Below are positions 33,490-60,328 of a stretch of 64,000 nucleotides of DNA, piece by piece. The stretch comes from Hypomesus transpacificus (lineage: Eukaryota > Chordata > Actinopteri > Osmeriformes > Osmeridae). The notes under the pieces were generated by a model. It was not told the DNA's origin and searched no databases. It worked only from the letters and a program-made list of their open reading frames with translations. Location: assembly GCF_021917145.1 (NCBI RefSeq), contig NC_061074.1, positions 2,107,487 through 2,171,486 of the forward strand, given 5' to 3'. The translations under genes were made by a program, and so were the position numbers. Each line of letters opens with the position of its first letter. Positions within the stretch are counted from its first letter, which is position 1.

Positions 33490-33564
33490 GATGAGATTCG
33501 AAGTCGCGCGAGCAGAGCACAATGGATTAGCAGTCCATCACCTTAACCACTCGGCCACCTCGTC
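33490..33564 (-). tRNA. tRNA-Ser(GCT)-like, class B, 3' end lost in gap
   Basis: Class B; C25 is U (G10.U25 wobble). The acceptor 3' strand lies in the N gap. Confidence 0.65.
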
Positions 33565-33791
33565 TTTTGGAGCACTGGGCCAACGGCAGTTAAAAAACCT
33601 TCCATTTCACAAAACGTGGAGAAAAGCGGTTGACGACAGGCACAATTGTGAAAGGAACAAAATTAGGAGCTGAGGAAGGAATCAGAGAGTTGTTGGAAAG
33701 GTAGTGGAGGAACACTAAGTAGGAGAACTAGGAATTCAGGGACGGAAGAATTTCAATTTAAAAGGGCGGACATGTCATAAATTCAACTTGC

Positions 33792-33873
33792 CGACGAGGA
33801 TGAGATTCGAAGTCGCGCGAGCAGAGCACAATGGATTAGCAGTCCATCGCCTTAACCACTCGGCCACCTCGTC
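33792..33873 (-). tRNA. tRNA-Ser(GCT)-like, class B
   Basis: First complete copy; class B without private change. Confidence 0.65.
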
Positions 33874-34100
33874 TTTTGGAGCACTGGGCCAACGGCAGTT
33901 AAAAAACCTTCCATTTCACAAAACGTGGAGAAAAGCAGGTGACGACAGGCACAATTGTGAAAGGAACAAAATCAGGAGCTGAGGAAGGAATCAGAGAGTT
34001 ATTGGAAAGGTAGTGGAGGAACACTAAGTAGGAGAACTAAGAGTTCAGGGACGGAAGAATTTCAATTTAATAGGGCGGACATGTCATAAAGACAACTTGC

Positions 34101-34182
34101 CGACAAGGATGAGATTCAAAGTCGCGCGTGCAGAGCACAATGGGTTAGCAGTCCATCGCCTTAACCACTCGGCCACCTCGTC
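34101..34182 (-). tRNA. tRNA-Ser(GCT)-like, class D
   Basis: Class D; acceptor G.U wobble (CCTTGTC) and A31xC39 mismatch in the anticodon stem. Probable pseudogene. Confidence 0.55.
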
Positions 34183-34409
34183 TCTTTGAGCTCTGGGCCC
34201 ATTGCAGTTAAAAACCTTCCATTTTACAAAACATGGAGAAAAGCAAGTGACGCCATGCACAATTGGGAAAGGAACAAAATCAGGAGCTGAGGAAGGAATA
34301 TAAAGAGTTATTGGAAAGGTAGTGGAGGAACACTAAGTAGGAGAACTAAGAATTCAGGGACGGAAGAATTTCAATTTAATAGGGCGGACATGTCATAAAT
34401 TCAACTTGC

Positions 34410-34491
34410 CGACGAGGATGAGATTCAAACTCACGCGCGCAGAGCACAATGGATTAGCAGTCCATCGCCTTAACCACTCGGCCACCTCGTC
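34410..34491 (-). tRNA. tRNA-Ser(GCT)-like, class C
   Basis: Class C; stems pair, T loop C56 replaced by U. Confidence 0.65.
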
Positions 34492-34704
34492 ATTTACACC
34501 ACTGGGCCCTAGGCAGTGAAAAAACCTTCCATTTCACAAAACATGGAGAAAAGCAAGTGACGACAGGCACATTTGTGAAAAGGAACATAATCAGGAGTTG
34601 AGGAAGGAATCAAAGAGTTGTTGGAAAGGTAGTGGAGGGACACTAAGTAGGAGGAAGGAAGAATTTCAATTTGATAAGGCGGACATGTCATAAAGACAAC
34701 TTGC

Positions 34705-34785
34705 CGACGAGGATGAGATTCGAACTCACGCGTGCAGAGCACAATGGATAGCAGTCCATCGCCTTCACCACTCGGCCACCTCGTC
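34705..34785 (-). tRNA. tRNA-Ser-like, class E (6-nt anticodon loop)
   Basis: 81 nt; loop reads CTGCTA. Probable pseudogene or altered tRNA. Confidence 0.6.
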
Positions 34786-35012
34786 GTTTACAGCAATGGG
34801 CCCACGGCGGTGAAACACCTTCCATTTCCTAAAACATGGAGAAAAGCAAGTGACGCCATGCACAATTGGGAAAGGAACAAAATCAGGAGCTGAGGAAGGA
34901 ATATAAAGAGTTGTTGGAAAGGTAGTGGAGGAACACTAAGTAGGAGAACTAAGAATTCAGGGACGGAAGAATTTCAATTTAATAGGGCGGACATGTCATA
35001 AAGACAACTTAC

Positions 35013-35094
35013 CGACGATGATGAGATTCGAACTCACGCGTGCAGAGCACAATGGATTAGCAATCCATCGCCTTAACCACTCGGCCACCTCGTC
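35013..35094 (-). tRNA. tRNA-Ser(GCT), class A with acceptor mismatch
   Basis: Class A; G6xA67 mismatch and U32 in the anticodon loop. Confidence 0.75.
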
Positions 35095-35321
35095 GTTTAC
35101 AGCAATGGGCCCACGGCGGTGAAAGACCTTCCATTTCCCAAAACATGGAGAAAAGCAAGTGACGCCATGCACAATTGGGAAAGGAACAAAATCAGGAGCT
35201 GAGGAAGGAATATAAAGAGTTGCTGGAAAGGTAGTGGAGGAACACTAAGTAGGAGAACTAAGAATTCAGGGTCGGAAGAATTTCAATTTAATAGGGCGGA
35301 CATGTCATAAAGACAACTTGC

Positions 35322-35403
35322 CGACGAGGATGAGATTCGAACTCACGCGTGCAGAGCACAATGGATTAGCAGTCCATCGCCTTAACCACTCGGCCACCTC
35401 GTC
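35322..35403 (-). tRNA. tRNA-Ser-GCT: tRNA-Ser(GCT), class A
   Basis: Unaltered class A. Confidence 0.9.
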
Positions 35404-35615
35404 ATTTACACCACAAGCCCTAGGCAGTGAAAAAACCTTCCATTTCACAAAACGTGGAGAAAAGCAAGTGACGACAGGCACAATTGTGAAAAGGAACATA
35501 ATCAGGAGTTGAGGAAGGAATCAAATAGTCGTTGGAAAGGTAGTGGAGGGACACTAAGTAGGAGGAAGGAAGAATTTCAATTTGATAAGGCGGACATGTC
35601 ATACAGACAACTTGC

Positions 35616-35697
35616 CGACGAGGATGAGATTCGAAGTCGCGCGAGCAGAGCACAATGGATTAGCAGTCCATCACCTTAACCACTCGGCCACCTCGTC
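35616..35697 (-). tRNA. tRNA-Ser(GCT)-like, class B
   Basis: Class B with U25. Confidence 0.65.
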
Positions 35698-35924
35698 TTT
35701 TGGAGCACTGGGCCAACGGCAGTTAAAAAACCTTCCATTTCACAAAACGTGGAGAAAAGCGGTTGACGACAGGCACAATTGTGAAAGGAACAAAATTAGG
35801 AGCTGAGGAAGGAATCAGAGAGTTGTTGGAAAGGTAGTGGAGGAACACTAAGTAGGAGAACTAGGAATTCAGGGACGGAAGAATTTCAATTTAAAAGGGC
35901 GGACATGTCATAAATTCAACTTGC

Positions 35925-36006
35925 CGACGAGGATGAGATTCGAAGTCGCGCGAGCAGAGCACAATGGATTAGCAGTCCATCGCCTTAACCACTCGGCCAC
36001 CTCGTC
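35925..36006 (-). tRNA. tRNA-Ser(GCT)-like, class B
   Basis: Second 2133-bp copy, equals 33792. Confidence 0.65.
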
Positions 36007-36233
36007 TTTTGGAGCACTGGGCCAACGGCAGTTAAAAAACCTTCCATTTCACAAAACGTGGAGAAAAGCAGGTGACGACAGGCACAATTGTGAAAGGAAC
36101 AAAATCAGGAGCTGAGGAAGGAATCAGAGAGTTATTGGAAAGGTAGTGGAGGAACACTAAGTAGGAGAACTAAGAGTTCAGGGACGGAAGAATTTCAATT
36201 TAATAGGGCGGACATGTCATAAAGACAACTTGC

Positions 36234-36315
36234 CGACAAGGATGAGATTCAAAGTCGCGCGTGCAGAGCACAATGGGTTAGCAGTCCATCGCCTTAACCA
36301 CTCGGCCACCTCGTC
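36234..36315 (-). tRNA. tRNA-Ser(GCT)-like, class D
   Basis: Equals 34101. Confidence 0.55.
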
Positions 36316-36542
36316 TCTTTGAGCTCTGGGCCCATTGCAGTTAAAAACCTTCCATTTTACAAAACATGGAGAAAAGCAAGTGACGCCATGCACAATTGGG
36401 AAAGGAACAAAATCAGGAGCTGAGGAAGGAATATAAAGAGTTATTGGAAAGGTAGTGGAGGAACACTAAGTAGGAGAACTAAGAATTCAGGGACGGAAGA
36501 ATTTCAATTTAATAGGGCGGACATGTCATAAATTCAACTTGC

Positions 36543-36624
36543 CGACGAGGATGAGATTCAAACTCACGCGCGCAGAGCACAATGGATTAGCAGTCCATCG
36601 CCTTAACCACTCGGCCACCTCGTC
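36543..36624 (-). tRNA. tRNA-Ser(GCT)-like, class C
   Basis: Equals 34410. Confidence 0.65.
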
Positions 36625-36837
36625 ATTTACACCACTGGGCCCTAGGCAGTGAAAAAACCTTCCATTTCACAAAACATGGAGAAAAGCAAGTGACGACAGG
36701 CACATTTGTGAAAAGGAACATAATCAGGAGTTGAGGAAGGAATCAAAGAGTTGTTGGAAAGGTAGTGGAGGGACACTAAGTAGGAGGAAGGAAGAATTTC
36801 AATTTGATAAGGCGGACATGTCATAAAGACAACTTGC

Positions 36838-36918
36838 CGACGAGGATGAGATTCGAACTCACGCGTGCAGAGCACAATGGATAGCAGTCCATCGCCTTCA
36901 CCACTCGGCCACCTCGTC
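36838..36918 (-). tRNA. tRNA-Ser-like, class E
   Basis: Equals 34705. Confidence 0.6.
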
Positions 36919-37145
36919 GTTTACAGCAATGGGCCCACGGCGGTGAAACACCTTCCATTTCCTAAAACATGGAGAAAAGCAAGTGACGCCATGCACAATT
37001 GGGAAAGGAACAAAATCAGGAGCTGAGGAAGGAATATAAAGAGTTGTTGGAAAGGTAGTGGAGGAACACTAAGTAGGAGAACTAAGAATTCAGGGACGGA
37101 AGAATTTCAATTTAATAGGGCGGACATGTCATAAAGACAACTTAC

Positions 37146-37227
37146 CGACGATGATGAGATTCGAACTCACGCGTGCAGAGCACAATGGATTAGCAATCCA
37201 TCGCCTTAACCACTCGGCCACCTCGTC
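37146..37227 (-). tRNA. tRNA-Ser(GCT), class A with acceptor mismatch
   Basis: Equals 35013. Confidence 0.75.
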
Positions 37228-37454
37228 GTTTACAGCAATGGGCCCACGGCGGTGAAAGACCTTCCATTTCCCAAAACATGGAGAAAAGCAAGTGACGCCA
37301 TGCACAATTGGGAAAGGAACAAAATCAGGAGCTGAGGAAGGAATATAAAGAGTTGCTGGAAAGGTAGTGGAGGAACACTAAGTAGGAGAACTAAGAATTC
37401 AGGGTCGGAAGAATTTCAATTTAATAGGGCGGACATGTCATAAAGACAACTTGC

Positions 37455-37536
37455 CGACGAGGATGAGATTCGAACTCACGCGTGCAGAGCACAATGGATT
37501 AGCAGTCCATCGCCTTAACCACTCGGCCACCTCGTC
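37455..37536 (-). tRNA. tRNA-Ser-GCT: tRNA-Ser(GCT), class A
   Basis: Unaltered; equals 35322. Confidence 0.9.
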
Positions 37537-37748
37537 ATTTACACCACAAGCCCTAGGCAGTGAAAAAACCTTCCATTTCACAAAACGTGGAGAAAAGCAA
37601 GTGACGACAGGCACAATTGTGAAAAGGAACATAATCAGGAGTTGAGGAAGGAATCAAATAGTCGTTGGAAAGGTAGTGGAGGGACACTAAGTAGGAGGAA
37701 GGAAGAATTTCAATTTGATAAGGCGGACATGTCATACAGACAACTTGC

Positions 37749-37830
37749 CGACGAGGATGAGATTCGAAGTCGCGCGAGCAGAGCACAATGGATTAGCAGT
37801 CCATCACCTTAACCACTCGGCCACCTCGTC
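37749..37830 (-). tRNA. tRNA-Ser(GCT)-like, class B
   Basis: Class B with U25; equals 35616. Confidence 0.65.
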
Positions 37831-38057
37831 TTTTGGAGCACTGGGCCAACGGCAGTTAAAAAACCTTCCATTTCACAAAACGTGGAGAAAAGCGGTTGAC
37901 GACAGGCACAATTGTGAAAGGAACAAAATTAGGAGCTGAGGAAGGAATCAGAGAGTTGTTGGAAAGGTAGTGGAGGAACACTAAGTAGGAGAACTAGGAA
38001 TTCAGGGACGGAAGAATTTCAATTTAAAAGGGCGGACATGTCATAAATTCAACTTGC

Positions 38058-38139
38058 CGACGAGGATGAGATTCGAAGTCGCGCGAGCAGAGCACAATGG
38101 ATTAGCAGTCCATCGCCTTAACCACTCGGCCACCTCGTC
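38058..38139 (-). tRNA. tRNA-Ser(GCT)-like, class B
   Basis: Third 2133-bp copy, equals 33792. Confidence 0.65.
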
Positions 38140-38366
38140 TTTTGGAGCACTGGGCCAACGGCAGTTAAAAAACCTTCCATTTCACAAAACGTGGAGAAAA
38201 GCAGGTGACGACAGGCACAATTGTGAAAGGAACAAAATCAGGAGCTGAGGAAGGAATCAGAGAGTTATTGGAAAGGTAGTGGAGGAACACTAAGTAGGAG
38301 AACTAAGAGTTCAGGGACGGAAGAATTTCAATTTAATAGGGCGGACATGTCATAAAGACAACTTGC

Positions 38367-38448
38367 CGACAAGGATGAGATTCAAAGTCGCGCGTGCAGA
38401 GCACAATGGGTTAGCAGTCCATCGCCTTAACCACTCGGCCACCTCGTC
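38367..38448 (-). tRNA. tRNA-Ser(GCT)-like, class D
   Basis: Equals 34101. Confidence 0.55.
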
Positions 38449-38675
38449 TCTTTGAGCTCTGGGCCCATTGCAGTTAAAAACCTTCCATTTTACAAAACAT
38501 GGAGAAAAGCAAGTGACGCCATGCACAATTGGGAAAGGAACAAAATCAGGAGCTGAGGAAGGAATATAAAGAGTTATTGGAAAGGTAGTGGAGGAACACT
38601 AAGTAGGAGAACTAAGAATTCAGGAACGGAAGAATTTCAATTTAATAGGGCGGACATGTCATAAATTCAACTTGC

Positions 38676-38757
38676 CGACGAGGATGAGATTCAAACTCAC
38701 GCGCGCAGAGCACAATGGATTAGCAGTCCATCGCCTTAACCACTCGGCCACCTCGTC
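38676..38757 (-). tRNA. tRNA-Ser(GCT)-like, class C
   Basis: Equals 34410. Confidence 0.65.
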
Positions 38758-38970
38758 ATTTACACCACTGGGCCCTAGGCAGTGAAAAAACCTTCCATTT
38801 CACAAAACATGGAGAAAAGCAAGTGACGACAGGCACATTTGTGAAAAGGAACATAATCAGGAGTTGAGGAAGGAATCAAAGAGTTGTTGGAAAGGTAGTG
38901 GAGGGACACTAAGTAGGAGGAAGGAAGAATTTCAATTTGATAAGGCGGACATGTCATAAAGACAACTTGC

Positions 38971-39051
38971 CGACGAGGATGAGATTCGAACTCACGCATG
39001 CAGAGCACAATGGATAGCAGTCCATCGCCTTCACCACTCGGCCACCTCGTC
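38971..39051 (-). tRNA. tRNA-Ser-like, class E
   Basis: As 34705 but with one private change beside the variable arm (GCATGCG for GCACGCG). Confidence 0.6.
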
Positions 39052-39278
39052 GTTTACAGCAATGGGCCCACGGCGGTGAAACACCTTCCATTTCCTAAAA
39101 CATGGAGAAAAGCAAGTGACGCCATGCACAATTGGGAAAGGAACAAAATCAGGAGCTGAGGAAGGAATATAAAGAGTTGTTGGAAAGGTAGTGGAGGAAC
39201 ACTAAGTAGGAGAACTAAGAATTCAGGGACGGAAGAATTTCAATTTAATAGGGCGGACATGTCATAAAGACAACTTAC

Positions 39279-39360
39279 CGACGATGATGAGATTCGAACT
39301 CACGCGTGCAGAGCACAATGGATTAGCAATCCATCGCCTTAACCACTCGGCCACCTCGTC
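39279..39360 (-). tRNA. tRNA-Ser(GCT), class A with acceptor mismatch
   Basis: Equals 35013. Confidence 0.75.
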
Positions 39361-39587
39361 GTTTACAGCAATGGGCCCACGGCGGTGAAAGACCTTCCAT
39401 TTCCCAAAACATGGAGAAAAGCAAGTGACGCCATGCACAATTGGGAAAGGAACAAAATCAGGAGCTGAGGAAGGAATATAAAGAGTTGCTGGAAAGGTAG
39501 TGGAGGAACACTAAGTAGGAGAACTAAGAATTCAGGGTCGGAAGAATTTCAATTTAATAGGGCGGACATGTCATAAAGACAACTTGC

Positions 39588-39669
39588 CGACGAGGATGAG
39601 ATTCGAACTCACGCGTGCAGAGCACAATGGATTAGCAGTCCATCGCCTTAACCACTCGGCCACCTCGTC
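39588..39669 (-). tRNA. tRNA-Ser-GCT: tRNA-Ser(GCT), class A
   Basis: Unaltered; equals 35322. Confidence 0.9.
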
Positions 39670-39881
39670 ATTTACACCACAAGCCCTAGGCAGTGAAAAA
39701 ACCTTCCATTTCACAAAACGTGGAGAAAAGCAAGTGACGACAGGCACAATTGTGAAAAGGAACATAATCAGGAGTTGAGGAAGGAATCAAATAGTCGTTG
39801 GAAAGGTAGTGGAGGGACACTAAGTAGGAGGAAGGAAGAATTTCAATTTGATAAGGCGGACATGTCATACAGACAACTTGC

Positions 39882-39963
39882 CGACGAGGATGAGATTCGA
39901 AGTCGCGCGAGCAGAGCACAATGGATTAGCAGTCCATCACCTTAACCACTCGGCCACCTCGTC
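39882..39963 (-). tRNA. tRNA-Ser(GCT)-like, class B
   Basis: Class B with U25; equals 35616. Confidence 0.65.
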
Positions 39964-45158: not shown

Positions 45159-45385
45159 GTTTACAGCAATGGGCCCACGGCGGTGAAAGACCTTCCATTT
45201 CCCAAAACATGGAGAAAAGCAAGTGACGCCATGCACAATTGGGAAAGGAACAAAATCAGGAGCTGAGGAGAGAATATAAAGAGTTGCTGGAAAGGTAGTG
45301 GAGGAACACTAAGTAGGAGAACTAAGAATTCAGGGTCGGAAGAATTTCAATTTAATAGGGCGGACATGTCATAAAGACAACTTGC

Positions 45386-45467
45386 CGACGAGGATGAGAT
45401 TCGAAGTCGCGCGAGCAGAGCATAATGGATTAGCAGTCCATCACCTTAACCACTCGGCCACCTCGTC
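45386..45467 (-). tRNA. tRNA-Ser(GCT)-like, class B
   Basis: Class B with U25 and TTATGC. Confidence 0.6.
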
Positions 45468-45694
45468 TTTTGGAGCACTGGGCCAACGGCAGTTAAAAAA
45501 CCTTCCATTTCACAAAACGTGGAGAAAAGCGGTTGACGACAGGCACAATTGTGAAAGGAACAAAATTAGGAGCTGAGGAAGGAATCAGAGAGTTGTTGGA
45601 AAGTTAGTGGAGGAACACTAAGTAGGAGAACTAGGAATTCAGGGACGGAAGAATTTCAATTTAAAAGGGCGGACATGTCATAAATTAAACTTGC

Positions 45695-45776
45695 CGACGA
45701 GGATGAGATTCGAAGTCGCGCGAGCAGAGCACAATGGATTAGCAGTCCATCGCCTTAACCACTCGGCCACCTCGTC
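45695..45776 (-). tRNA. tRNA-Ser(GCT)-like, class B
   Basis: Class B, no private change. Confidence 0.65.
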
Positions 45777-46003
45777 GTTTACAGCAATGGGCCCACGGCG
45801 GTGAAAGACCTTCCATTTCCCAAAACATGGAGAAAAGCAAGTGACGCCATGCACAATTGGGAAAGGAACAAAATCAGGAGCTGAGGAGAGAATATAAAGA
45901 GTTGCTGGAAAGGTAGTGGAGGAACACTAAGTAGGAGAACTAAGAATTCAGGGTCGGAAGAATTTCAATTTAATAGGGCGGACATGTCATAAAGACAACT
46001 TGC

Positions 46004-46085
46004 CGACGAGGATGAGATTCGAACTCACGCGCGCAGAGCACAATCGATTAGCAGTCCATCGCCTTAACCACTCGGCCACCTCGTC
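46004..46085 (-). tRNA. tRNA-Ser(GCT), class A-like with anticodon-stem mismatch
   Basis: G29xG41 mismatch and GCGC variable stem. Confidence 0.7.
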
Positions 46086-46298
46086 ATTTACACCACTGGG
46101 CCCTAGGCAGTGAAAAAACCTTCCATTTCACAAAACATGGAGAAAAGCAAGTGACGACAGGCACAATTGTGAAAAGGAACATAATCAGGAGTTGAGGAAG
46201 GAATCAAAGAGTTGTTGGAAAGGTAGTGGAGGGACACTAAGTAGGAGGAAGGAAGAATTTCAATTTGATAAGGCGGACATGTCATAAAGACAACTTGC

Positions 46299-46379
46299 CG
46301 ACGAGGATGAGATTCGAACTCACGCGTGCAGAGCACAATGGATAGCAGTCCATCGCCTTCACCACTCGGCCACCTCGTC
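46299..46379 (-). tRNA. tRNA-Ser-like, class E
   Basis: Class E, no private change. Confidence 0.6.
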
Positions 46380-46606
46380 GTTTACAGCAATGGGCCCACG
46401 GCGGTGAAAGACCTTCCATTTCCCAAAACATGGAGAAAAGCAAGTGACGCCATGCACAATTGGGAAAGGAACAAAATCAGGAGGTGAGGAAGGAATATAA
46501 AGAGTTGTTGGAAAGGTAGTGGAGGAACACTAAGTAGGAGAACTAAGAATTCAGGGTCGGAAGAATTTCAATTTAATAGGGCGGACATGTCATGAAGACA
46601 ACTTGC

Positions 46607-47292: not shown

Positions 47293-47518
47293 GTTTACAG
47301 CAATGGGCCCACAGCGGTGAAACACCTTCCATTTGCCAAAACATGGAGAAAAGCAAGTGACGCCATGCACAATTGGGAAAGGAACAAAATCAGGAGTTGA
47401 GGAAGGAATCAAAGAGTTGTTGGAAAGGTAGTGGAGGGACACTAAGTAGGAGAACTAAGAATTCAGGGACGGAAGAATTTCAATTTAATAGGGCGGACAT
47501 GTCATAAAGACAACTTGC

Positions 47519-47600
47519 CGACGAGGATGAGATTCGAACTCACGCGTGCAGAGCACAATGGATTAGCAGTCCATCGCCTTAACCACTCGGCCACCTCGTC
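47519..47600 (-). tRNA. tRNA-Ser-GCT: tRNA-Ser(GCT), class A
   Basis: Unaltered. Confidence 0.9.
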
Positions 47601-47827
47601 TTTTGGAGCACTGGGCCAACGGCAGTGAAAAAACCTTCCATTTCACAAAACGTGGGGAAAAGCAAGTGACGACAGGCACAATTGTGAAAGGAACAAAATT
47701 AGGAGCTGAGGAAGGAATCAGAGAGTTGTTGGAAAGGTAGTGGAGGAACACTAAGTAGGAGAACTAGGAATTCAGGGACGGAAGAATTTCAATTTAAAAG
47801 GGCGGACATGTCATAAATTCAACTTGC

Positions 47828-47909
47828 CGACGAGGATGAGATTCGAAGTCGCGCGAGCAGATCACAATGGATTAGCAGCCCATCGCCTTAACCACTCGGC
47901 CACCTCGTC
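47828..47909 (-). tRNA. tRNA-Ser(GCT)-like, class B
   Basis: Same private changes as 42633. Confidence 0.6.
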
Positions 47910-48136
47910 TTTTGGAGCACTGGGCCAACGGCAGTTAAAAAACCTTCCATTTCACAAAACGTGGAGAAAAGCAGGTGACGACAGGCACAATTGTGAAAGG
48001 AACAAAATTAGGAGCTGAGGAAGGAATCAGAGAGTTGTTCGAAAGGTAGTGGAGGAACACTAAGTAGGAGAACTAGGAATTCAGGGACGGAAGAATTTCA
48101 ATTTAAAAGGGCGGACATGTCATAAATTCAACTTGC

Positions 48137-48218
48137 TGACAAGGATGAGATTCGAAGTCGCGCGAGCAGAGCACAATGGGTTAGCAGTCCATCGCCTTAA
48201 CCACTCGGCCACCTCGTC
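48137..48218 (-). tRNA. tRNA-Ser(GCT)-like, class B, discriminator A
   Basis: Discriminator A instead of G, acceptor wobble and A31xC39; probable pseudogene, since G73 is a seryl-tRNA synthetase identity base in vertebrates. Confidence 0.55.
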
Positions 48219-48445
48219 TTTTTGAGCTCTGGGCCCATTGCAGTTAAAAACCTTCCATTTTACAAAACATGGAGAAAAGCAAGTGACGCCATGCACAATT
48301 GGGAAAGGAACAAAATCAGGAGCTGAGGAAGGAATATAAAGAGTTGTTGGAAAGGTAGTGGAGGAACACTAAGTAGGAGAACTAAGAATTCGGGGACGGA
48401 AGAATTTCAATTTAATAGGGCGGACATGTCATAAAGACAACTTAC

Positions 48446-48527
48446 CGACGAGGATGAGATTCGAACTCACGCGTGCAGAGCACAATGGATTAGCAGTCCA
48501 TCGCCTTAACCACTCGGCCACCTCGTC
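48446..48527 (-). tRNA. tRNA-Ser-GCT: tRNA-Ser(GCT), class A
   Basis: Unaltered. Confidence 0.9.
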
Positions 48528-48754
48528 GTTTACAGCAATGGGCCCACGGCGGTGAAAGACCTTCCATTTCCCGAAACATGGAGAAAAGCAAGTGACGCCA
48601 TGCACAATTGGGAAAGGAACAAAATCAGGAGCTGAGGAAGGAATATAAAGAGTTGCTGGAAAGGTAGTGGAGGAACACTAAGTAGGAGAACTAAGAATTC
48701 AGGGTCGGAAGAATTTCAATTTAATAGGGCGGACATGTCATAAATTCAACTTGC

Positions 48755-48836
48755 CGACGAGGATGAGATTCGAAGTCGCGCGAGCAGAGCACAATGGATT
48801 AGCAGTCCATCGCCTTAACCACTCGGCCACCTCGTC
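48755..48836 (-). tRNA. tRNA-Ser(GCT)-like, class B
   Basis: Class B, no private change. Confidence 0.65.
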
Positions 48837-49063
48837 TTTTGGAGCACTGGGCCAACGGCAGTTAAAAAACCTTCCATTTCACAAAACATGGAGAAAAGCA
48901 AGTGACGCCATGCACAATTGGGAAAGGAACAAAATCAGGAGCTGAGGAAGGAATCAGAGAGTTATTGGAAAGGTAGTGGAGGAACACTAAGTAGGAGAAC
49001 TAAGAGTTCAGGGACGGAAGAATTTCAATTTAATAAGGCGGACATGTCATAAAGACAACTTGC

Positions 49064-49145
49064 CGACGAGGATGAGATTCAAAGTCGCGCGTGCAGAGCA
49101 CAATGGGTTAGCAGTCCATCGCCTTAACCACTCGGCCACCTCGTC
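49064..49145 (-). tRNA. tRNA-Ser(GCT)-like, class D
   Basis: Acceptor intact, A31xC39. Confidence 0.55.
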
Positions 49146-49372
49146 TTTTTGAGCTCTGGGCCCATTGCAGTTAAAAACCTTCCATTTTACAAAACATGGA
49201 GAAAAGCAAGTGACGCCATGCACAATTGGGAAAGGAACAAAATCAGGAGCTGAGGAAGGAATATAAAGAGTTGTTGGAAAGGTAGTGGAGGAACACTAAG
49301 TAGGAGAACTAAGAATTCAGGGACGGAAGAATTTCAATTTAATAGGGCGGACATGTCATAAATTCAACTTGC

Positions 49373-49454
49373 CGACAAGGATGAGATTCAAACTCACGCG
49401 CGCAGAGCACAATGGATTAGCAGTCCATCGCCTTAACCACTCGGCCACCTCGTC
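49373..49454 (-). tRNA. tRNA-Ser(GCT)-like, class C
   Basis: Class C with acceptor wobble. Confidence 0.6.
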
Positions 49455-49681
49455 GTTTACAGCAATGGGCCCACGGCGGTGAAAGACCTTCCATTTCCCA
49501 AAACATGGAGAAAAGCAAGTGACGCCATGCACAATTGGGAAAGGAACAAAATCAGGAGCTGAGGAAGGAATATAAAGAGTTGCTGGAAAGGTAGTGGAGG
49601 AACACTAAGTAGGAGAACTAAGAATTCAGGGTCGGAAGAATTTCAATTTAATAGGGCGGACATGTCATAAAGACAACTTGC

Positions 49682-49763
49682 CGACGAGGATGAGATTCGA
49701 ACTCACGCGTGCAGAGCACAATAGATTAGCAGTCCATCGCCTTAACCACTCGGCCACCTCGTC
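49682..49763 (-). tRNA. tRNA-Ser-GCT: tRNA-Ser(GCT), class A
   Basis: G29.U41 wobble in the anticodon stem. Confidence 0.85.
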
Positions 49764-49976
49764 ATTTACCCCACTGGGCCCTAGGCAGTGAAAAAACCTT
49801 CCATTTCACAAAACATGGAGAAAAGCAAGTGACGACAGGCACAATTGTGAAAAGGAACATAATCAGGAGTTGAGGAAGGAATCAAAGCGTTGTTGGAAAG
49901 GTAGTGGAGGGACACTAAGTAGGAGGAAGGAAGAATTTCAATTTGATAAGGCGGACATGTCATAAAGACAACTTGC

Positions 49977-50057
49977 CGACGAGGATGAGATTCGAACTCA
50001 CGCGTGCAGAGCACAATGGATAGCAGTCCATCGCCTTCACCACTCAGCCACCTCGTC
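49977..50057 (-). tRNA. tRNA-Ser-like, class E
   Basis: Class E plus U12 (A box TGGCTGAGTGG). Confidence 0.55.
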
Positions 50058-50284
50058 GTTTACAGCAATGGGCCCACGGCGGTGAAACACCTTCCATTTC
50101 CCAAAACATGGAGAAAAGCAAGTGACGCCATGCACAATTGGGAAAGGAACAAAATCAGGAGCTGAGGAAGGAATATAAAGAGTTGTTGGAAAGGTAGTGG
50201 AGGAACACTAAGTAGGAGAACTAAGAATTCAGGGACGGAAGAATTTCAATTTAATAGGGCGGACATGTCATAAATTAAACTTGC

Positions 50285-50366
50285 CGACGAGGATGAGATT
50301 CGAAGTCGCGCGAGCAGAGCACAATGGATTAGCAGTCCATCGCCTTAACCACTCGGCCACCTCGTC
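50285..50366 (-). tRNA. tRNA-Ser(GCT)-like, class B
   Basis: Start of the second 5208-bp copy; equals 45077. Confidence 0.65.
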
Positions 50367-50593
50367 GTTTACAGCAATGGGCCCACGGCGGTGAAAGACC
50401 TTCCATTTCCCAAAACATGGAGAAAAGCAAGTGACGCCATGCACAATTGGGAAAGGAACAAAATCAGGAGCTGAGGAGAGAATATAAAGAGTTGCTGGAA
50501 AGGTAGTGGAGGAACACTAAGTAGGAGAACTAAGAATTCAGGGTCGGAAGAATTTCAATTTAATAGGGCGGACATGTCATAAAGACAACTTGC

Positions 50594-50675
50594 CGACGAG
50601 GATGAGATTCGAAGTCGCGCGAGCAGAGCATAATGGATTAGCAGTCCATCACCTTAACCACTCGGCCACCTCGTC
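50594..50675 (-). tRNA. tRNA-Ser(GCT)-like, class B
   Basis: Equals 45386. Confidence 0.6.
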
Positions 50676-50902
50676 TTTTGGAGCACTGGGCCAACGGCAG
50701 TTAAAAAACCTTCCATTTCACAAAACGTGGAGAAAAGCGGTTGACGACAGGCACAATTGTGAAAGGAACAAAATTAGGAGCTGAGGAAGGAATCAGAGAG
50801 TTGTTGGAAAGTTAGTGGAGGAACACTAAGTAGGAGAACTAGGAATTCAGGGACGGAAGAATTTCAATTTAAAAGGGCGGACATGTCATAAATTAAACTT
50901 GC

Positions 50903-50984
50903 CGACGAGGATGAGATTCGAAGTCGCGCGAGCAGAGCACAATGGATTAGCAGTCCATCGCCTTAACCACTCGGCCACCTCGTC
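50903..50984 (-). tRNA. tRNA-Ser(GCT)-like, class B
   Basis: Equals 45695. Confidence 0.65.
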
Positions 50985-51211
50985 GTTTACAGCAATGGGC
51001 CCACGGCGGTGAAAGACCTTCCATTTCCCAAAACATGGAGAAAAGCAAGTGACGCCATGCACAATTGGGAAAGGAACAAAATCAGGAGCTGAGGAGAGAA
51101 TATAAAGAGTTGCTGGAAAGGTAGTGGAGGAACACTAAGTAGGAGAACTAAGAATTCAGGGTCGGAAGAATTTCAATTTAATAGGGCGGACATGTCATAA
51201 AGACAACTTGC

Positions 51212-51293
51212 CGACGAGGATGAGATTCGAACTCACGCGCGCAGAGCACAATCGATTAGCAGTCCATCGCCTTAACCACTCGGCCACCTCGTC
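51212..51293 (-). tRNA. tRNA-Ser(GCT), class A-like with anticodon-stem mismatch
   Basis: Equals 46004. Confidence 0.7.
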
Positions 51294-51506
51294 ATTTACA
51301 CCACTGGGCCCTAGGCAGTGAAAAAACCTTCCATTTCACAAAACATGGAGAAAAGCAAGTGACGACAGGCACAATTGTGAAAAGGAACATAATCAGGAGT
51401 TGAGGAAGGAATCAAAGAGTTGTTGGAAAGGTAGTGGAGGGACACTAAGTAGGAGGAAGGAAGAATTTCAATTTGATAAGGCGGACATGTCATAAAGACA
51501 ACTTGC

Positions 51507-51587
51507 CGACGAGGATGAGATTCGAACTCACGCGTGCAGAGCACAATGGATAGCAGTCCATCGCCTTCACCACTCGGCCACCTCGTC
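51507..51587 (-). tRNA. tRNA-Ser-like, class E
   Basis: Equals 46299. Confidence 0.6.
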
Positions 51588-51814
51588 GTTTACAGCAATG
51601 GGCCCACGGCGGTGAAAGACCTTCCATTTCCCAAAACATGGAGAAAAGCAAGTGACGCCATGCACAATTGGGAAAGGAACAAAATCAGGAGGTGAGGAAG
51701 GAATATAAAGAGTTGTTGGAAAGGTAGTGGAGGAACACTAAGTAGGAGAACTAAGAATTCAGGGTCGGAAGAATTTCAATTTAATAGGGCGGACATGTCA
51801 TGAAGACAACTTGC

Positions 51815-51896
51815 CGACGAGGACGAGATTCGAACTCACGCGTGCAGAGCACAATGGATTAGCAGTCCATCGCCTTAACCACTCGGCCACCTCGTC
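51815..51896 (-). tRNA. tRNA-Ser-GCT: tRNA-Ser(GCT), class A with C65
   Basis: Equals 46607. Confidence 0.9.
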
Positions 51897-52123
51897 TTTT
51901 TGAGCTCTGGGCCCATTGTAGTTAAAACCCTTCCATTTTACAAAACATGGAGAAAAGCATGTGACGCCATGCACAATTGGGAAAGGAACAAAATCAGGAG
52001 CTGAGGAAGGAATATAAAGAGTTGTTGGAAAGGTAGTGGAGGAACACTAAGTAGGAGAACTAAGAATTCAGGGACGGAAGAATTTCAATTTAATAGGGCG
52101 GACATGTCATAAAGACAACTTGC

Positions 52124-52205
52124 CGACGAGGATGAGATTCGAACTCACGCGTGCAGAGCACAATGGATTAGCAGTCCATCGCCTCAACCACTCGGCCACC
52201 TCGTC
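52124..52205 (-). tRNA. tRNA-Ser-GCT: tRNA-Ser(GCT), class A
   Basis: Equals 46916. Confidence 0.85.
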
Positions 52206-52418
52206 ATTTACACCACTGGGCCCTAGGCAGTGAAAAAACCTTCCATTTCACAAAACGTGGGGAAAAGCAAGTGACGACAGGCACAATTGTGAAAAGGAAC
52301 ATAATCAGGAGTTGAGGAAGGAATCAAAGAGTTGTTGGAAAGGTAGTGGAGGGACACTAAGTAGGAGGAAAGAAGAATTTCAATTTGATAAGGCGGACAT
52401 GTCATAAAGACAACTTGC

Positions 52419-52500
52419 CGACGAGGATGAGATTCGAACTCACGCGTGCAGAGCACAATGGATTAGCAGTCCATCGCCTTAACCACTCGGCCACCTCGTC
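52419..52500 (-). tRNA. tRNA-Ser-GCT: tRNA-Ser(GCT), class A
   Basis: Unaltered. Confidence 0.9.
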
Positions 52501-52726
52501 GTTTACAGCAATGGGCCCACAGCGGTGAAACACCTTCCATTTGCCAAAACATGGAGAAAAGCAAGTGACGCCATGCACAATTGGGAAAGGAACAAAATCA
52601 GGAGTTGAGGAAGGAATCAAAGAGTTGTTGGAAAGGTAGTGGAGGGACACTAAGTAGGAGAACTAAGAATTCAGGGACGGAAGAATTTCAATTTAATAGG
52701 GCGGACATGTCATAAAGACAACTTGC

Positions 52727-52808
52727 CGACGAGGATGAGATTCGAACTCACGCGTGCAGAGCACAATGGATTAGCAGTCCATCGCCTTAACCACTCGGCC
52801 ACCTCGTC
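52727..52808 (-). tRNA. tRNA-Ser-GCT: tRNA-Ser(GCT), class A
   Basis: Unaltered. Confidence 0.9.
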
Positions 52809-53035
52809 TTTTGGAGCACTGGGCCAACGGCAGTGAAAAAACCTTCCATTTCACAAAACGTGGGGAAAAGCAAGTGACGACAGGCACAATTGTGAAAGGA
52901 ACAAAATTAGGAGCTGAGGAAGGAATCAGAGAGTTGTTGGAAAGGTAGTGGAGGAACACTAAGTAGGAGAACTAGGAATTCAGGGACGGAAGAATTTCAA
53001 TTTAAAAGGGCGGACATGTCATAAATTCAACTTGC

Positions 53036-53117
53036 CGACGAGGATGAGATTCGAAGTCGCGCGAGCAGATCACAATGGATTAGCAGCCCATCGCCTTAAC
53101 CACTCGGCCACCTCGTC
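53036..53117 (-). tRNA. tRNA-Ser(GCT)-like, class B
   Basis: Equals 47828. Confidence 0.6.
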
Positions 53118-53344
53118 TTTTGGAGCACTGGGCCAACGGCAGTTAAAAAACCTTCCATTTCACAAAACGTGGAGAAAAGCAGGTGACGACAGGCACAATT
53201 GTGAAAGGAACAAAATTAGGAGCTGAGGAAGGAATCAGAGAGTTGTTCGAAAGGTAGTGGAGGAACACTAAGTAGGAGAACTAGGAATTCAGGGACGGAA
53301 GAATTTCAATTTAAAAGGGCGGACATGTCATAAATTCAACTTGC

Positions 53345-53426
53345 TGACAAGGATGAGATTCGAAGTCGCGCGAGCAGAGCACAATGGGTTAGCAGTCCAT
53401 CGCCTTAACCACTCGGCCACCTCGTC
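53345..53426 (-). tRNA. tRNA-Ser(GCT)-like, class B, discriminator A
   Basis: Equals 48137. Confidence 0.55.
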
Positions 53427-53653
53427 TTTTTGAGCTCTGGGCCCATTGCAGTTAAAACCCTTCCATTTTACAAAACATGGAGAAAAGCAAGTGACGCCAT
53501 GCACAATTGGGAAAGGAACAAAATCAGGAGCTGAGGAAGGAATATAAAGAGTTGTTGGAAAGGTAGTGGAGGAACACTAAGTAGGAGAACTAAGAATTCA
53601 GGGACGGAAGAATTTCAATTTAATAGGGCGGACATGTCATAAAGACAACTTAC

Positions 53654-53735
53654 CGACGAGGATGAGATTCGAACTCACGCGTGCAGAGCACAATGGATTA
53701 GCAGTCCATCGCCTTAACCACTCGGCCACCTCGTC
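53654..53735 (-). tRNA. tRNA-Ser-GCT: tRNA-Ser(GCT), class A
   Basis: Unaltered. Confidence 0.9.
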
Positions 53736-53962
53736 GTTTACAGCAATGGGCCCACGGCGGTGAAAGACCTTCCATTTCCCGAAACATGGAGAAAAGCAAG
53801 TGACGCCATGCACAATTGGGAAAGGAACAAAATCAGGAGCTGAGGAAGGAATATAAAGAGTTGCTGGAAAGGTAGTGGAGGAACACTAAGTAGGAGAACT
53901 AAGAATTCAGGGTCGGAAGAATTTCAATTTAATAGGGCGGACATGTCATAAATTCAACTTGC

Positions 53963-54044
53963 CGACGAGGATGAGATTCGAAGTCGCGCGAGCAGAGCAC
54001 AATGGATTAGCAGTCCATCGCCTTAACCACTCGGCCACCTCGTC
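53963..54044 (-). tRNA. tRNA-Ser(GCT)-like, class B
   Basis: Equals 48755. Confidence 0.65.
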
Positions 54045-54271
54045 TTTTGGAGCACTGGGCCAACGGCAGTTAAAAAACCTTCCATTTCACAAAACATGGA
54101 GAAAAGCAAGTGACGCCATGCACAATTGGGAAAGGAACAAAATCAGGAGCTGAGGAAGGAATCAGAGAGTTATTGGAAAGGTAGTGGAGGAACACTAAGT
54201 AGGAGAACTAAAAGTTCAGGGACGGAAGAATTTCAATTTAATAAGGCGGACATGTCATAAAGACAACTTGC

Positions 54272-54353
54272 CGACGAGGATGAGATTCAAAGTCGCGCGT
54301 GCAGAGCACAATGGGTTAGCAGTCCATCGCCTTAACCACTCGGCCACCTCGTC
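54272..54353 (-). tRNA. tRNA-Ser(GCT)-like, class D
   Basis: Equals 49064. Confidence 0.55.
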
Positions 54354-54580
54354 TTTTTGAGCTCTGGGCCCATTGCAGTTAAAAACCTTCCATTTTACAA
54401 AACATGGAGAAAAGCAAGTGACGCCATGCACAATTGGGAAAGGAACAAAATCAGGAGCTGAGGAAGGAATATAAAGAGTTGTTGGAAAGGTAGTGGAGGA
54501 ACACTAAGTAGGAGAACTAAGAATTCAGGGACGGAAGAATTTCAATTTAATAGGGCGGACATGTCATAAATTCAACTTGC

Positions 54581-54662
54581 CGACAAGGATGAGATTCAAA
54601 CTCACGCGCGCAGAGCACAATGGATTAGCAGTCCATCGCCTTAACCACTCGGCCACCTCGTC
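54581..54662 (-). tRNA. tRNA-Ser(GCT)-like, class C
   Basis: Equals 49373. Confidence 0.6.
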
Positions 54663-54889
54663 GTTTACAGCAATGGGCCCACGGCGGTGAAAGACCTTCC
54701 ATTTCCCAAAACATGGAGAAAAGCAAGTGACGCCATGCACAATTGGGAAAGGAACAAAATCAGGAGCTGAGGAAGGAATATAAAGAGTTGCTGGAAAGGT
54801 AGTGGAGGAACACTAAGTAGGAGAACTAAGAATTCAGGGTCGGAAGAATTTCAATTTAATAGGGCGGACATGTCATAAAGACAACTTGC

Positions 54890-54971
54890 CGACGAGGATG
54901 AGATTCGAACTCACGCGTGCAGAGCACAATAGATTAGCAGTCCATCGCCTTAACCACTCGGCCACCTCGTC
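54890..54971 (-). tRNA. tRNA-Ser-GCT: tRNA-Ser(GCT), class A
   Basis: Equals 49682. Confidence 0.85.
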
Positions 54972-55184
54972 ATTTACCCCACTGGGCCCTAGGCAGTGAA
55001 AAAACCTTCCATTTCACAAAACATGGAGAAAAGCAAGTGACGACAGGCACAATTGTGAAAAGGAACATAATCAGGAGTTGAGGAAGGAATCAAAGCGTTG
55101 TTGGAAAGGTAGTGGAGGGACACTAAGTAGGAGGAAGGAAGAATTTCAATTTGATAAGGCGGACATGTCATAAAGACAACTTGC

Positions 55185-55265
55185 CGACGAGGATGAGATT
55201 CGAACTCACGCGTGCAGAGCACAATGGATAGCAGTCCATCGCCTTCACCACTCAGCCACCTCGTC
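55185..55265 (-). tRNA. tRNA-Ser-like, class E
   Basis: Equals 49977. Confidence 0.55.
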
Positions 55266-57949: not shown

Positions 57950-58031
57950 CGACGAGGATGAGATTCAAAGTCGCGCGTGCAGAGCACAATGGGTTAGCAG
58001 TCCATCGCCTTAACCACTCGGCCACCTCGTC
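57950..58031 (-). tRNA. tRNA-Ser(GCT)-like, class D
   Basis: Equals 49064. Confidence 0.55.
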
Positions 58032-58258
58032 TTTTTGAGCTCTGGGCCCATTGCAGTTAAAAACCTTCCATTTTACAAAACATGGAGAAAAGCAAGTGAC
58101 GCCATGCACAATTGGGAAAGGAACAAAATCAGGAGCTGAGGAAGGAATATAAAGAGTTGTTGGAAAGGTAGTGGAGGAACACTAAGTAGGAGAACTAAGA
58201 ATTCAGGGACGGAAGAATTTCAATTTAATAGGGCGGACATGTCATAAATTCAACTTGC

Positions 58259-58340
58259 CGACAAGGATGAGATTCAAACTCACGCGCGCAGAGCACAATG
58301 GATTAGCAGTCCATCGCCTTAACCACTCGGCCACCTCGTC
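58259..58340 (-). tRNA. tRNA-Ser(GCT)-like, class C
   Basis: Equals 49373. Confidence 0.6.
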
Positions 58341-58553
58341 ATTTACACCACTGGGCCCTAGGCAGTGAAAAAACCTTCCATTTCACAAAACATGGAGAAA
58401 AGCAAGTGACGACAGGCACAATTGTGAAAAGGAACATAATCAGGAGTTGAGGAAGGAATCAAAGAGTTGTTGGAAAGGTAGTGGAGGGACACTAAGTAGG
58501 AGGAAGGAAGAATTTCAATTTGATAAGGCGGACATGTCATAAAGACAACTTGC

Positions 58554-58635
58554 CGACGAGGATGAGATTCAAACTCACGCGCGCAGAGCACAATGGATTA
58601 GCAGTCCATCGCCTTAACCACTCGGCCACCTCGTC
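58554..58635 (-). tRNA. tRNA-Ser(GCT)-like, class C
   Basis: Class C, acceptor intact. Confidence 0.65.
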
Positions 58636-58862
58636 ATTTACACCACTGGGCCCACGGCGGTGAAAGACCTTCCATTTCCCAAAACATGGAGAAAAGCAAG
58701 TGACGCCATGCACAATTGGGAAAGGAACCAAATCAGGAGCTGAGGAAGGAATATAAAGAGTTGTTGGAAAGGTAGTGGAGGAACACTAAGTAGGAGAACT
58801 AAGAATTCAGGGACGGAAGAATTTCAATTTAATAGGGCGGACATGTCATAAAGACAACTTAC

Positions 58863-58944
58863 CGACGAGGATGAGATTCGAACTAACGCGTGCAGAGCAC
58901 AATGGATTAGCAGTCCATCGCCTTAACCACTCGGCCACCTCGTC
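58863..58944 (-). tRNA. tRNA-Ser(GCT), class A with T-stem mismatch
   Basis: GTTAG T stem: U51xC63 mismatch. Confidence 0.75.
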
Positions 58945-59171
58945 GTTTACAGCAATGGGCCCACGGCGGTGAAAGACCTTCCATTTCCCAAAACATGGAG
59001 AAAAGCAATTGACGCCATGCACAATTGGGAAAGGAACAAAATCAGGAGCTGAGGAAGGAATATAAAGAGTTGCTGGAAAGGTAGTGGAGGAACACTAAGT
59101 AGGAGAACTAAGAATTCAGGGTCGGAAGAATTTCAATTTAATAGGGCGGACATGTCATAAAGACAACTTGC

Positions 59172-59253
59172 CGACGAGGATGAGATTCGAACTCACGCGT
59201 GCAGAGCACAATGGATTAGCAGTCCATCGCCTTAACCACTCGGCCACCTCGTC
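59172..59253 (-). tRNA. tRNA-Ser-GCT: tRNA-Ser(GCT), class A
   Basis: Unaltered. Confidence 0.9.
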
Positions 59254-59480
59254 ATTTACACCACTGGGCCGACGGCGGTGAAAGACCTTCCATTTCCCAA
59301 AACATGGAGAAAAGCAAGTGACGCCATGCACAATTGGGAAAGGAACAAAATCAGGAGCTGAGGAAGGAATATAAAGAGTTGTTGGAAAGGTAGTGGAGGA
59401 ACACTAAGTAGGAGAACTAAGAATTCAGGGACGGAAGAATTTCAATTTAATAGGGCGGACATGTCATAAAGACAACTTAC

Positions 59481-59562
59481 CGACGAGGATGAGATTCGAA
59501 CTCACGCGTGCAGAGCACAATGGATTAGCAGTCCATCGCCTTAACCACTCGGCCACCTCGTC
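59481..59562 (-). tRNA. tRNA-Ser-GCT: tRNA-Ser(GCT), class A
   Basis: Unaltered. Confidence 0.9.
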
Positions 59563-59789
59563 GTTTACAGCAATGGGCCCACGGCGGTGAAAGACCTTCC
59601 ATTTCCCAAAACATGGAGAAAAGCAAGTGACGCCATGCACAATTGGGAAAGGAACAAAATCAGGAGCTGAGGAAGGAATATAAAGAGTTGCTGGAAAGGT
59701 AGTGGAGGAACACTAAGTAGGAGAACTAAGAATTCAGGGTCGGAAGAATTTCAATTTAATAGGGCGGACATGTCATAAAGACAACTTGC

Positions 59790-59871
59790 CGACGAGGATG
59801 AGATTCGAACTCACGCGTGCAGAGCACAATGGATTAGCAGTCCATCGCCTTAACCACTCGGCCACCTCGTC
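59790..59871 (-). tRNA. tRNA-Ser-GCT: tRNA-Ser(GCT), class A
   Basis: Unaltered. Confidence 0.9.
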
Positions 59872-60098
59872 TTTTGGAGCACTTGGCCAACGGCAGTTAA
59901 AAAACCTTCCATTTCACAAAACGTGGAGAAAAGCGGGTGACGACAGGCACAATTGTGAAAGGAACAAAATTAGGAGCTGAGGAAGGAATCAGAGAGTTGT
60001 TGGAAAGGTAGTGGAGGAACACTAAGTAGGAGAACTAGGAATTCAGGGACGGAAGAATTTCAATTTAAAAGGGCGGACATGTCATAAATTCAACTTGC

Positions 60099-60180
60099 CG
60101 ACGAGGATGAGATTCGAAGTCGCGCGAGCAGAGCACAATGGATTAGCAGTCCATCGCCTTAACCACTCGGCCACCTCGTC
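60099..60180 (-). tRNA. tRNA-Ser(GCT)-like, class B
   Basis: Last copy before the retroviral insertion; class B. Confidence 0.65.
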
Positions 60181-60328
60181 ATTTACACCACTGGGCCCTA
60201 GGCAGTGAAAAAACCTTCCATTTCACAAAACATGGAGAAAAGCAAGTGACGACAGGCACAATTGTGAAAGGAACAAAATCAGGAGCTGAGGAAGGAATCA
60301 GAGAGTTATTGGAAAGGTAGTGGAGGAA

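Follow-up and report, generated by a model that had tools for sequence, protein, structure and literature searches.

A tandem array of tRNA-Ser(GCT)-type copies in a smelt genome, probably behaving as a tRNA-gene satellite

Introduction

Does a long tandem array built from a single tRNA type act as a gene family, or does it behave as a satellite whose units happen to contain a tRNA? Tandem tRNA arrays in fish are already known, and a further case lies on the minus strand of a 64,000-nucleotide stretch of Hypomesus transpacificus contig NC_061074.1 (hereafter the window, meaning the whole stretch that was analysed). Here, its units, their differences and their edges are described, followed by the explanations that these features allow.

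Extent and composition of the array

The initial annotation described a single-orientation, minus-strand tandem array of tRNA-Ser(GCT), and Tandem Repeats Finder, Rfam, a motif scan and BLAST all bear this out (Table 1). Tandem Repeats Finder delimits a repeat of period 309 at 33490-60328 (87.7 copies, score 41933), the unit of which consists of an 82-nt tRNA and a spacer of ~227 bp. The Rfam tRNA family RF00005 was matched at 88 positions, 88/88 on the minus strand, with scores of 31.5-64.7 bits for a gathering score of 29 bits. ARAGORN made 77 calls in the array, nine of which were given as 'tRNA-???' with the anticodon 'gc' and fall on the same nine copies that are without one anticodon-loop base. 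When the whole window was scanned with a fuzzy motif, 88 copies came up on the minus strand and none on the opposite strand; one unit used as a BLAST query, with a positive control included, gave 88 matches in the window, every one of them inside the array. In 88/88 units, tRNA and spacer are repeated head to tail in one orientation. Most units measure 309 bp (66), followed by 294 bp (12), 295 bp (6) and 308 bp (3), and a single unit is cut to 75 bp by a gap.

The annotated figure of 88 copies holds inside the window but is only a lower bound, as a gap of 100 N lies at the left and three full copies and one partial copy lie beyond a provirus, outside the window; because of the gap at the left edge, the copy number of the array is not exactly trustworthy. 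Likewise, the description as one tRNA gene is right as to type, tRNA-Ser(GCT), but not as to sequence: 25 different tRNA bodies, the truncated one included, and 50 distinct units among 87 were counted.

Table 1. Coordinates of the array, its repeats, example copies and adjoining features in the window.
Feature	Position	Strand	Details
Tandem array, 88 tRNA-Ser(GCT)-type copies, ~309-bp units	33490..60328	-	Tandem Repeats Finder, Rfam, motif scan, BLAST
Higher-order repeat A, three 2133-bp, 7-unit blocks	33565..39963	-	0, 2 and 2 differences between blocks
Higher-order repeat A, fourth block, partial	39964-41802	-	5 differences from counterpart
Higher-order repeat B	45159..55265	-	4899 bp; units 40-55 (45159-50057) recur as units 57-72 (50367-55265), 4 differences
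Commonest fold-intact tRNA body, example	35322..35403	-	16 identical copies, 64.7 bits
T-stem-broken class, example	33792..33873	-	C62.C70 in 35 full copies, 34 also C59.A73
Anticodon-loop deletion class (9 copies), example	34705..34785	-	ARAGORN, Rfam
Run of 100 N, read as assembly gap, cutting first unit	33390..33489	.	Motif scan, BLAST
LTR of minus-strand provirus inserted within array unit	60329..60925	-	Partner LTR L009:3296-3892
In-window portion of provirus	60926..64000	-	

Edges and flanking sequence

Neither of the visible edges of the array is a natural end. Left of the N run, BLAST with a positive control found no array sequence within the window, and this flank holds protein-coding genes, among them RNF26, which is 94% identical to rainbow smelt. 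The provirus at the right edge is recent, its two LTRs being identical over 597 bp and GGAA being duplicated on both outer sides. Array sequence is present on both sides of it, with one unit split, and the array continues past it for three full copies and one partial copy before ending at the poly(A) end of a LINE. All of these outer copies are T-stem broken, and ARAGORN called none of them. Satellite edges homogenise least, and the broken copies past the provirus are counted in favour of a tRNA-gene satellite.

No array units were found within ~30 kb beyond the end of the array. A tRNA-derived SINE would have numerous dispersed copies. In a genome search, the matches listed that included unit spacer were the array tail, one fragment (contig C135) and one solo unit (C6), counts that are lower bounds, since very common words were skipped and the array itself was absent from the matches; the readable remainder of contig C135 yielded no array units. 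An exact 27-base piece of the spacer was absent from viral and prokaryote collections, in which a repeat from a fish would hardly be expected. A salmonid origin is rejected, since two salmonid transposon ends were absent at <=3 mismatches and RNF26 points to smelt.

Higher-order repeats and exchange between units

The near-identical 2133-bp and 4899-bp blocks mark unequal exchange. They give the array the properties of a satellite, namely a long tandem arrangement with higher-order repeats generated by such exchange, and they lend direct support to the annotated view of a satellite-like, single-isoacceptor array under concerted evolution. The higher-order blocks differ by 0-5 positions; between distinct units, mean divergence amounts to 4% of sites in the tRNA and 8% in the spacer. 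The block comparison makes no use of an out-of-register line for units 78-82 or of the ungapped mean for adjacent units. Additionally, the T-stem-broken haplotype appears scattered across the unit tree (one FastTree run) and is accompanied by five leader types, as expected if units exchange pieces.

Copy classes, internal promoters and terminators

Twenty-five of the 88 copies are fold-intact, and the other 63 carry changes in the T-stem, the anticodon loop, the acceptor stem or C56. The largest class has a broken T-stem (36/88, comprising 35 full copies and the gap-truncated unit 1); anticodon-loop deletions, C56U and other breaks account for nine copies each. The A-box is kept in 88/88 copies and the B-box core is absent from 45, so that both boxes occur together in 43/88. 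An A61-T71 pair in the T-stem is found in 78/78 full 82-nt copies and in all nine copies of 81 nt. At this position the vertebrate tRNA-Ser(GCT) gene has G-C, and the comparison was made with the human read GTGGGTTCGAATCCCATCCTCGTCGG, which we take to be tRNA-Ser. This small-RNA read is printed in PMC4378994.

A TTTT run, as would be expected near a functional tRNA-Ser(GCT) gene, occurs within 120 nt downstream of 0/25 fold-intact copies, the first run being located at 124-131 nt. Within 60 nt, TTTT follows 18/35 full T-stem-broken copies versus 0/25 intact ones (Fisher p=6e-6) and none of the other 27 full copies; in 17 of the 35 it lies 29 nt downstream. Since Pol III read-through is reported to be common in human cells (PMC5356446), the absence of TTTT is not proof of silence.

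Sequence constraint on tRNA and spacer

The conserved spacer had been proposed to act as a promoter, an insulator or a second RNA, a suggestion that finds no support here. In neither segregating sites nor diversity does the spacer surpass the gene in conservation. Segregating sites number 16/82 in the tRNA versus 31/166 in the trailer and middle spacer combined (p=0.86), and 22/60 in the leader. Pairwise diversity among distinct units is 0.042 for the tRNA versus 0.080 for the spacer, which divides into trailer (0.065), middle (0.056) and leader (0.139). In the intact class the values are 0.009 and 0.068, respectively, a comparison that is partly circular, the class being defined by its tRNA. 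Stem changes keep pairing in 9/19 cases versus 4.7 expected from simulated random changes (p=0.027), and in 9/13 when transitions alone are considered (p=0.13). The lower tRNA diversity and the pairing-keeping changes hint at some constraint, which would be weak at best. C-T/G-A variation affects 14/31 CpG sites versus 28/135 other C/G sites (odds ratio 3.1, p=0.010), an excess that is consistent with germline methylation.

No second RNA was found in the spacer with Rfam or by folding. No Rfam family besides tRNA reached its gathering score in the whole window, none appeared in the spacers of the ~3 units examined at a lenient threshold, and in the folding of one spacer 13/200 and 40/200 shuffles folded equally well or better for the two strands, respectively. 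Weak antisense Rfam matches to a plastid family were located on the tRNA itself, below the gathering score of that family. A CTCF boundary is rejected: a CTCF-type tRNA boundary repeat would carry the motif in every unit, and a CTCF core motif has no match with <=2 mismatches in the array (23 matches fall in the rest of the window; the chance expectation is 25).

Origin and possible function of the array

We consider it reasonably probable that the locus is a tRNA-gene satellite, in which an amplified tRNA-Ser(GCT) gene and its spacer are homogenised by exchange while copies decay and a minority is possibly active. A tRNA-Ser(GCT) gene, probably a working one given the A61-T71 pair shared by its descendants where the vertebrate gene has G-C, would have been amplified head to tail together with its spacer, and unequal exchange and gene conversion would keep the units similar and produce the satellite behaviour. 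After amplification the copies would have decayed, leaving about a quarter fold-intact. Overall, expression of the array is probably absent or weak, and a minority of copies may be transcribable in some tissue. Counted against the satellite reading are the lower tRNA diversity, the pairing-keeping stem changes, the 16 identical tRNA bodies and Pol III read-through.

The alternative that survives best, even though we judge it unlikely, is a working dosage array that would supply maternal (oocyte) tRNA-Ser, with an isodecoder whose T-stem would set it apart from its somatic counterpart. The 25 fold-intact copies, the A61-T71 pair common to all full copies, compared with the human read (PMC4378994), and the lower diversity of tRNA than of spacer would suit it, as would zebrafish, in which egg-deposited tRNAs are proposed to derive from highly repetitive regions and later tRNAs from isolated genes, Ala isodecoders differing in one T-stem pair (PMC11417395); the same proposal for zebrafish is made in PMC11075544. 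However, the majority of copies look broken, TTTT is near no intact copy, variable sites are no scarcer in the tRNA than in most of the spacer, and CpG sites show decay. A related and more doubtful idea is that the array actively supplies the egg or some other tissue with a distinct T-stem isodecoder of tRNA-Ser(GCT). Its precursors would be read-through transcripts that lack a nearby TTTT, and recombination would keep restoring intact copies although most of the pool is broken.

A chromatin boundary built of TFIIIC sites, comparable to the human 1q23.3 tRNA repeat, appears highly improbable: A-box and B-box core are kept together in 43/88 copies, but the B-box core is missing in the other 45 and the CTCF core motif is lacking in the array and no more frequent than chance outside it. 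An assembly artefact, either an inflated shorter array or a collapsed longer one, has equally little in its favour, for although an N run adjoins the array and two 2133-bp blocks are identical, the 50 distinct units speak against it, as does the provirus, which interrupts a unit, is bounded by a matching 4-bp duplication and has array sequence on either flank.

Comparison with known tRNA arrays

The array appears to stand midway between a gene family and a satellite, and its copy classes are separable by sequence. Such a locus makes it possible to examine whether fish tRNA genes in clusters are expressed at all, and whether broken copies are rescued or spread by exchange; the A61-T71 pair offers a ready tag for expression tests. 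Among the closest parallels are the clusters on the long arm of zebrafish chromosome 4, which also comprise many repeated tRNA genes with nearly all neighbours in parallel, with ~20,000 predicted genes, pseudogenes included (PMC11417395, PMC2888827, PMC11075544). In zebrafish, adjacent genes mostly differ in type (PMC2888827), whereas the smelt array is a single compact one, is made of one isoacceptor and has protein-coding genes in its left flank. In Entamoeba, tandem tRNA units are likewise most likely homogenised by concerted evolution, but almost all tRNA genes are distributed among 25 types of array, whose units hold at most five tRNAs (PMC2652664), in contrast to the one array, one tRNA and many decayed copies of the smelt. 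The Arabidopsis SYY and tRNA-Cys clusters are also tandem tRNA units, are silenced in most tissues and resemble the smelt array in that their major copies form a core, with more variable copies and pseudogenes on its flanks (PMC12308677, PMC10701932). In this plant, SYY consists of 27 units, each with one Ser gene and two Tyr genes, compared to one Ser tRNA per smelt unit, and 13/54 clustered Tyr copies are only tRNA-like (PMC12308677, PMC10701932) versus 63/88 smelt copies that are not fold-intact. Finally, the human 1q23.3 tRNA variable number tandem repeat is a vertebrate tandem repeat containing tRNA genes, but its 7.3-kb, GC-rich unit holds five tRNA genes and CTCF sites (PMC4041453), while the smelt unit measures 309 bp and is without a CTCF-like motif.

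Extent and Genomic Setting of the tRNA Array

An array of 88 tRNA-Ser(GCT) genes in one orientation with a period of about 309 bp had been proposed in the initial annotation, and Tandem Repeats Finder, Rfam, a motif scan and BLAST agree on it. Tandem Repeats Finder reports 87.7 copies with a period of 309, Rfam places 88 tRNAs in the window, every one on the minus strand and inside the array, the motif scan of the window detected no copies on the opposite strand, and a BLAST query with one unit matches the window 88 times, always within the array; the ARAGORN count for the window is 77 tRNAs. This is far above chance expectation. The window corresponds to C15:2107487-2171486 in an assembly of 437 Mb and 376 contigs. 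Past its right end, in the adjoining stretch L009, the array restarts at position 3893 with three full tRNAs (43.0, 37.6 and 44.4 bits; none called by ARAGORN) and one partial copy, giving 92 copies visible on the scaffold. A run of 100 N truncates the array on its left side, and the part of the window before this run holds no array sequence. No more units were found on C15 as far as 2207000. Among the genes of the left flank, the RNF26-like protein shares 94% identity with RNF26 of Osmerus mordax (rainbow smelt) across 98% of its length, ahead of the next listed match at 58%, which makes a smelt (Osmeridae) or a near relative the most likely host.

Features of the array, its flanks and a related fragment
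Feature	Location	Strand	Details
KMT2-type SET domain			left flank of array
C1q-domain gene			left flank of array
RNF26-like gene	15559-16968		left flank of array
Minisatellite	3283-3655		61-bp period, 6.1 copies, 98% match; ~2.4 kb from KMT2-like SET exon
Minisatellite	23592-24084		15-bp period, 33 copies, several frames open
tRNA-Ser(GCT) array	33490-60328	minus	
Provirus	60329-64000 and L009:1-3892		LTRs at 60329-60925 and L009:3296-3892
LINE	L009:4945-6994	minus	poly(A) end closes array
Fragment on contig C135	L011:5077-5201		tRNA positions 19-82 and 61 nt of trailer

State of the tRNA Copies

The array evolves as a satellite in which sound copies are a minority: only 25 of the 88 remain fold-intact. 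The T-stem is broken in 35 full copies and in the truncated unit 1 at the left edge by C62.C70, accompanied by C59.A73 in 34 of the 35, while an anticodon-loop base is absent in nine copies, C56U occurs in nine, and other mismatches affect the acceptor stem (six copies), the anticodon stem (two) and the T-stem at another place (one). The A-box is found in 88/88 copies and the B-box core in 43/88. Where the vertebrate reference gene has a G-C pair, all 78 full 82-nt copies and all nine 81-nt copies share an A61-T71 pair, and this compensated pair suggests that the founder of the array was a working tRNA gene. A human read with the G-C reference sequence has been printed as a microRNA-offset RNA (PMC4378994).

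The interest of the array turns on expression. No TTTT lies within 120 nt downstream of any of the 25 intact copies, whose nearest four-T run is 124-131 nt away, or of the 27 remaining full copies, whereas some T-stem-broken copies carry one, at 29 nt (17 copies) or 59 nt (one copy); the contrast between intact and T-stem-broken copies has p=6e-6, with copies in repeated blocks being non-independent. For human Pol III, four T suffice for termination and read-through is common (PMC5356446), and given such read-through the intact copies may make long precursors rather than nothing.

Exchange Between Units, Selection and the Spacer

Unit classes return as blocks along the array. Three seven-unit blocks of 2133 bp show 0, 2 and 2 differences among themselves, a fourth block that is only partial shows 5, and units 40-55 differ from units 57-72 (4899 bp) at 4 positions, compared with mean differences among distinct units of 4% at tRNA sites and 8% at spacer sites. 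Higher-order repeats of this type are generated by unequal exchange. In addition, the T-stem-broken haplotype occupies several places of the unit tree (a single FastTree run, no support values read) and is paired with five leader types, a distribution that would fit the swapping of pieces between units.

Segregating sites, counted where 2 or more of the 50 distinct units carry a minor base, are as frequent in the tRNA (16/82) as in the trailer and middle spacer (31/166; p=0.86), and variation within the unit peaks in the leader (22/60; five types), which comprises the 60 nt on the 5' side of each tRNA across 33565-60328. Pairwise diversity (tRNA 0.042, trailer 0.065, middle 0.056, leader 0.139) points a little in the opposite direction. 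Pairing is kept in 9 of 19 stem changes against 4.7 expected (p=0.027), or in 9 of 13 for transitions alone (p=0.13), and CpG transitions are enriched (14/31 versus 28/135; p=0.010). Taken together, these patterns point to at most weak constraint on the tRNA and to an array that is probably methylated in the germline.

The conservation of the spacer had also been taken as a possible sign of function, a reading that found no support: tRNA is the only Rfam family in the window to reach its gathering score, a lenient Rfam search of about three units yielded no family in the spacer, one folded spacer was no more stable than expected (z -1.66 and -0.86), and no CTCF-like site was found in the array at up to 2 mismatches. 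The spacer is explicable without any function.

Mobile Elements at the Array Edges and Related Copies

At the right edge, a provirus breaks one tRNA unit at 60328/60329. Its two 597-bp LTRs are identical and GGAA stands on both outer flanks as a 4-bp target duplication, which argues for a recent insertion. The array terminates at L009:4947, at about position 21 of a tRNA, and abuts there the poly(A) end of a LINE. A reverse-transcriptase segment of the element has matches among LINE-1 ORF2-type chains (lowest E value 1.9e-10), its Pfam hits fall below the curated cut-offs (RVT_1, 7.7e-5, 22.9 bits against 29.6; zf-RVT, 5.3e-6, 27.4 bits against 27.5), and eight relatives were found at 37-47% identity.

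Related copies came from a genome search that passes over very frequent words and did not list the array, so that it gives no evidence that other Ser-GCT genes are absent. The fragment on C135, a contig of 138 kb, is isolated and adjoins a tRNA-Leu(CAG) gene; its tRNA part is identical (64/64) to the fold-intact tRNA body of the array and its trailer matches at 98%. Contig C6 holds part of a solo unit that is 5-10% different from array units, and the remaining fetched matches are, by ARAGORN, tRNA-Ser(AGA) genes (four on C50, one each on C19 and C21), with one weak tRNA-like stretch (29.7 bits) also on C19. The breakpoints of the C135 fragment (tRNA position 19) and of the LINE-closed array end nearly coincide, which hints that the LINE may be tRNA-targeting.

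Comparison With Known tRNA Arrays

Dewa, a Tx-group LINE of zebrafish, was reportedly described by Kojima and Fujiwara in 2004 as specific for tandem tRNA arrays. tRNA genes are listed among LINE targets (PMC4640811), 65% of tRNA genes and pseudogenes in zebrafish and 87% in stickleback lie in clusters (PMC2888827), and maternal tRNAs of zebrafish originate in repetitive regions (PMC11417395). No report of a smelt tRNA array appeared in literature searches that were mostly general rather than smelt-specific, so that absence is not proven. The single-isoacceptor tRNA array is real, and it is new as a case of a kind that is already known.
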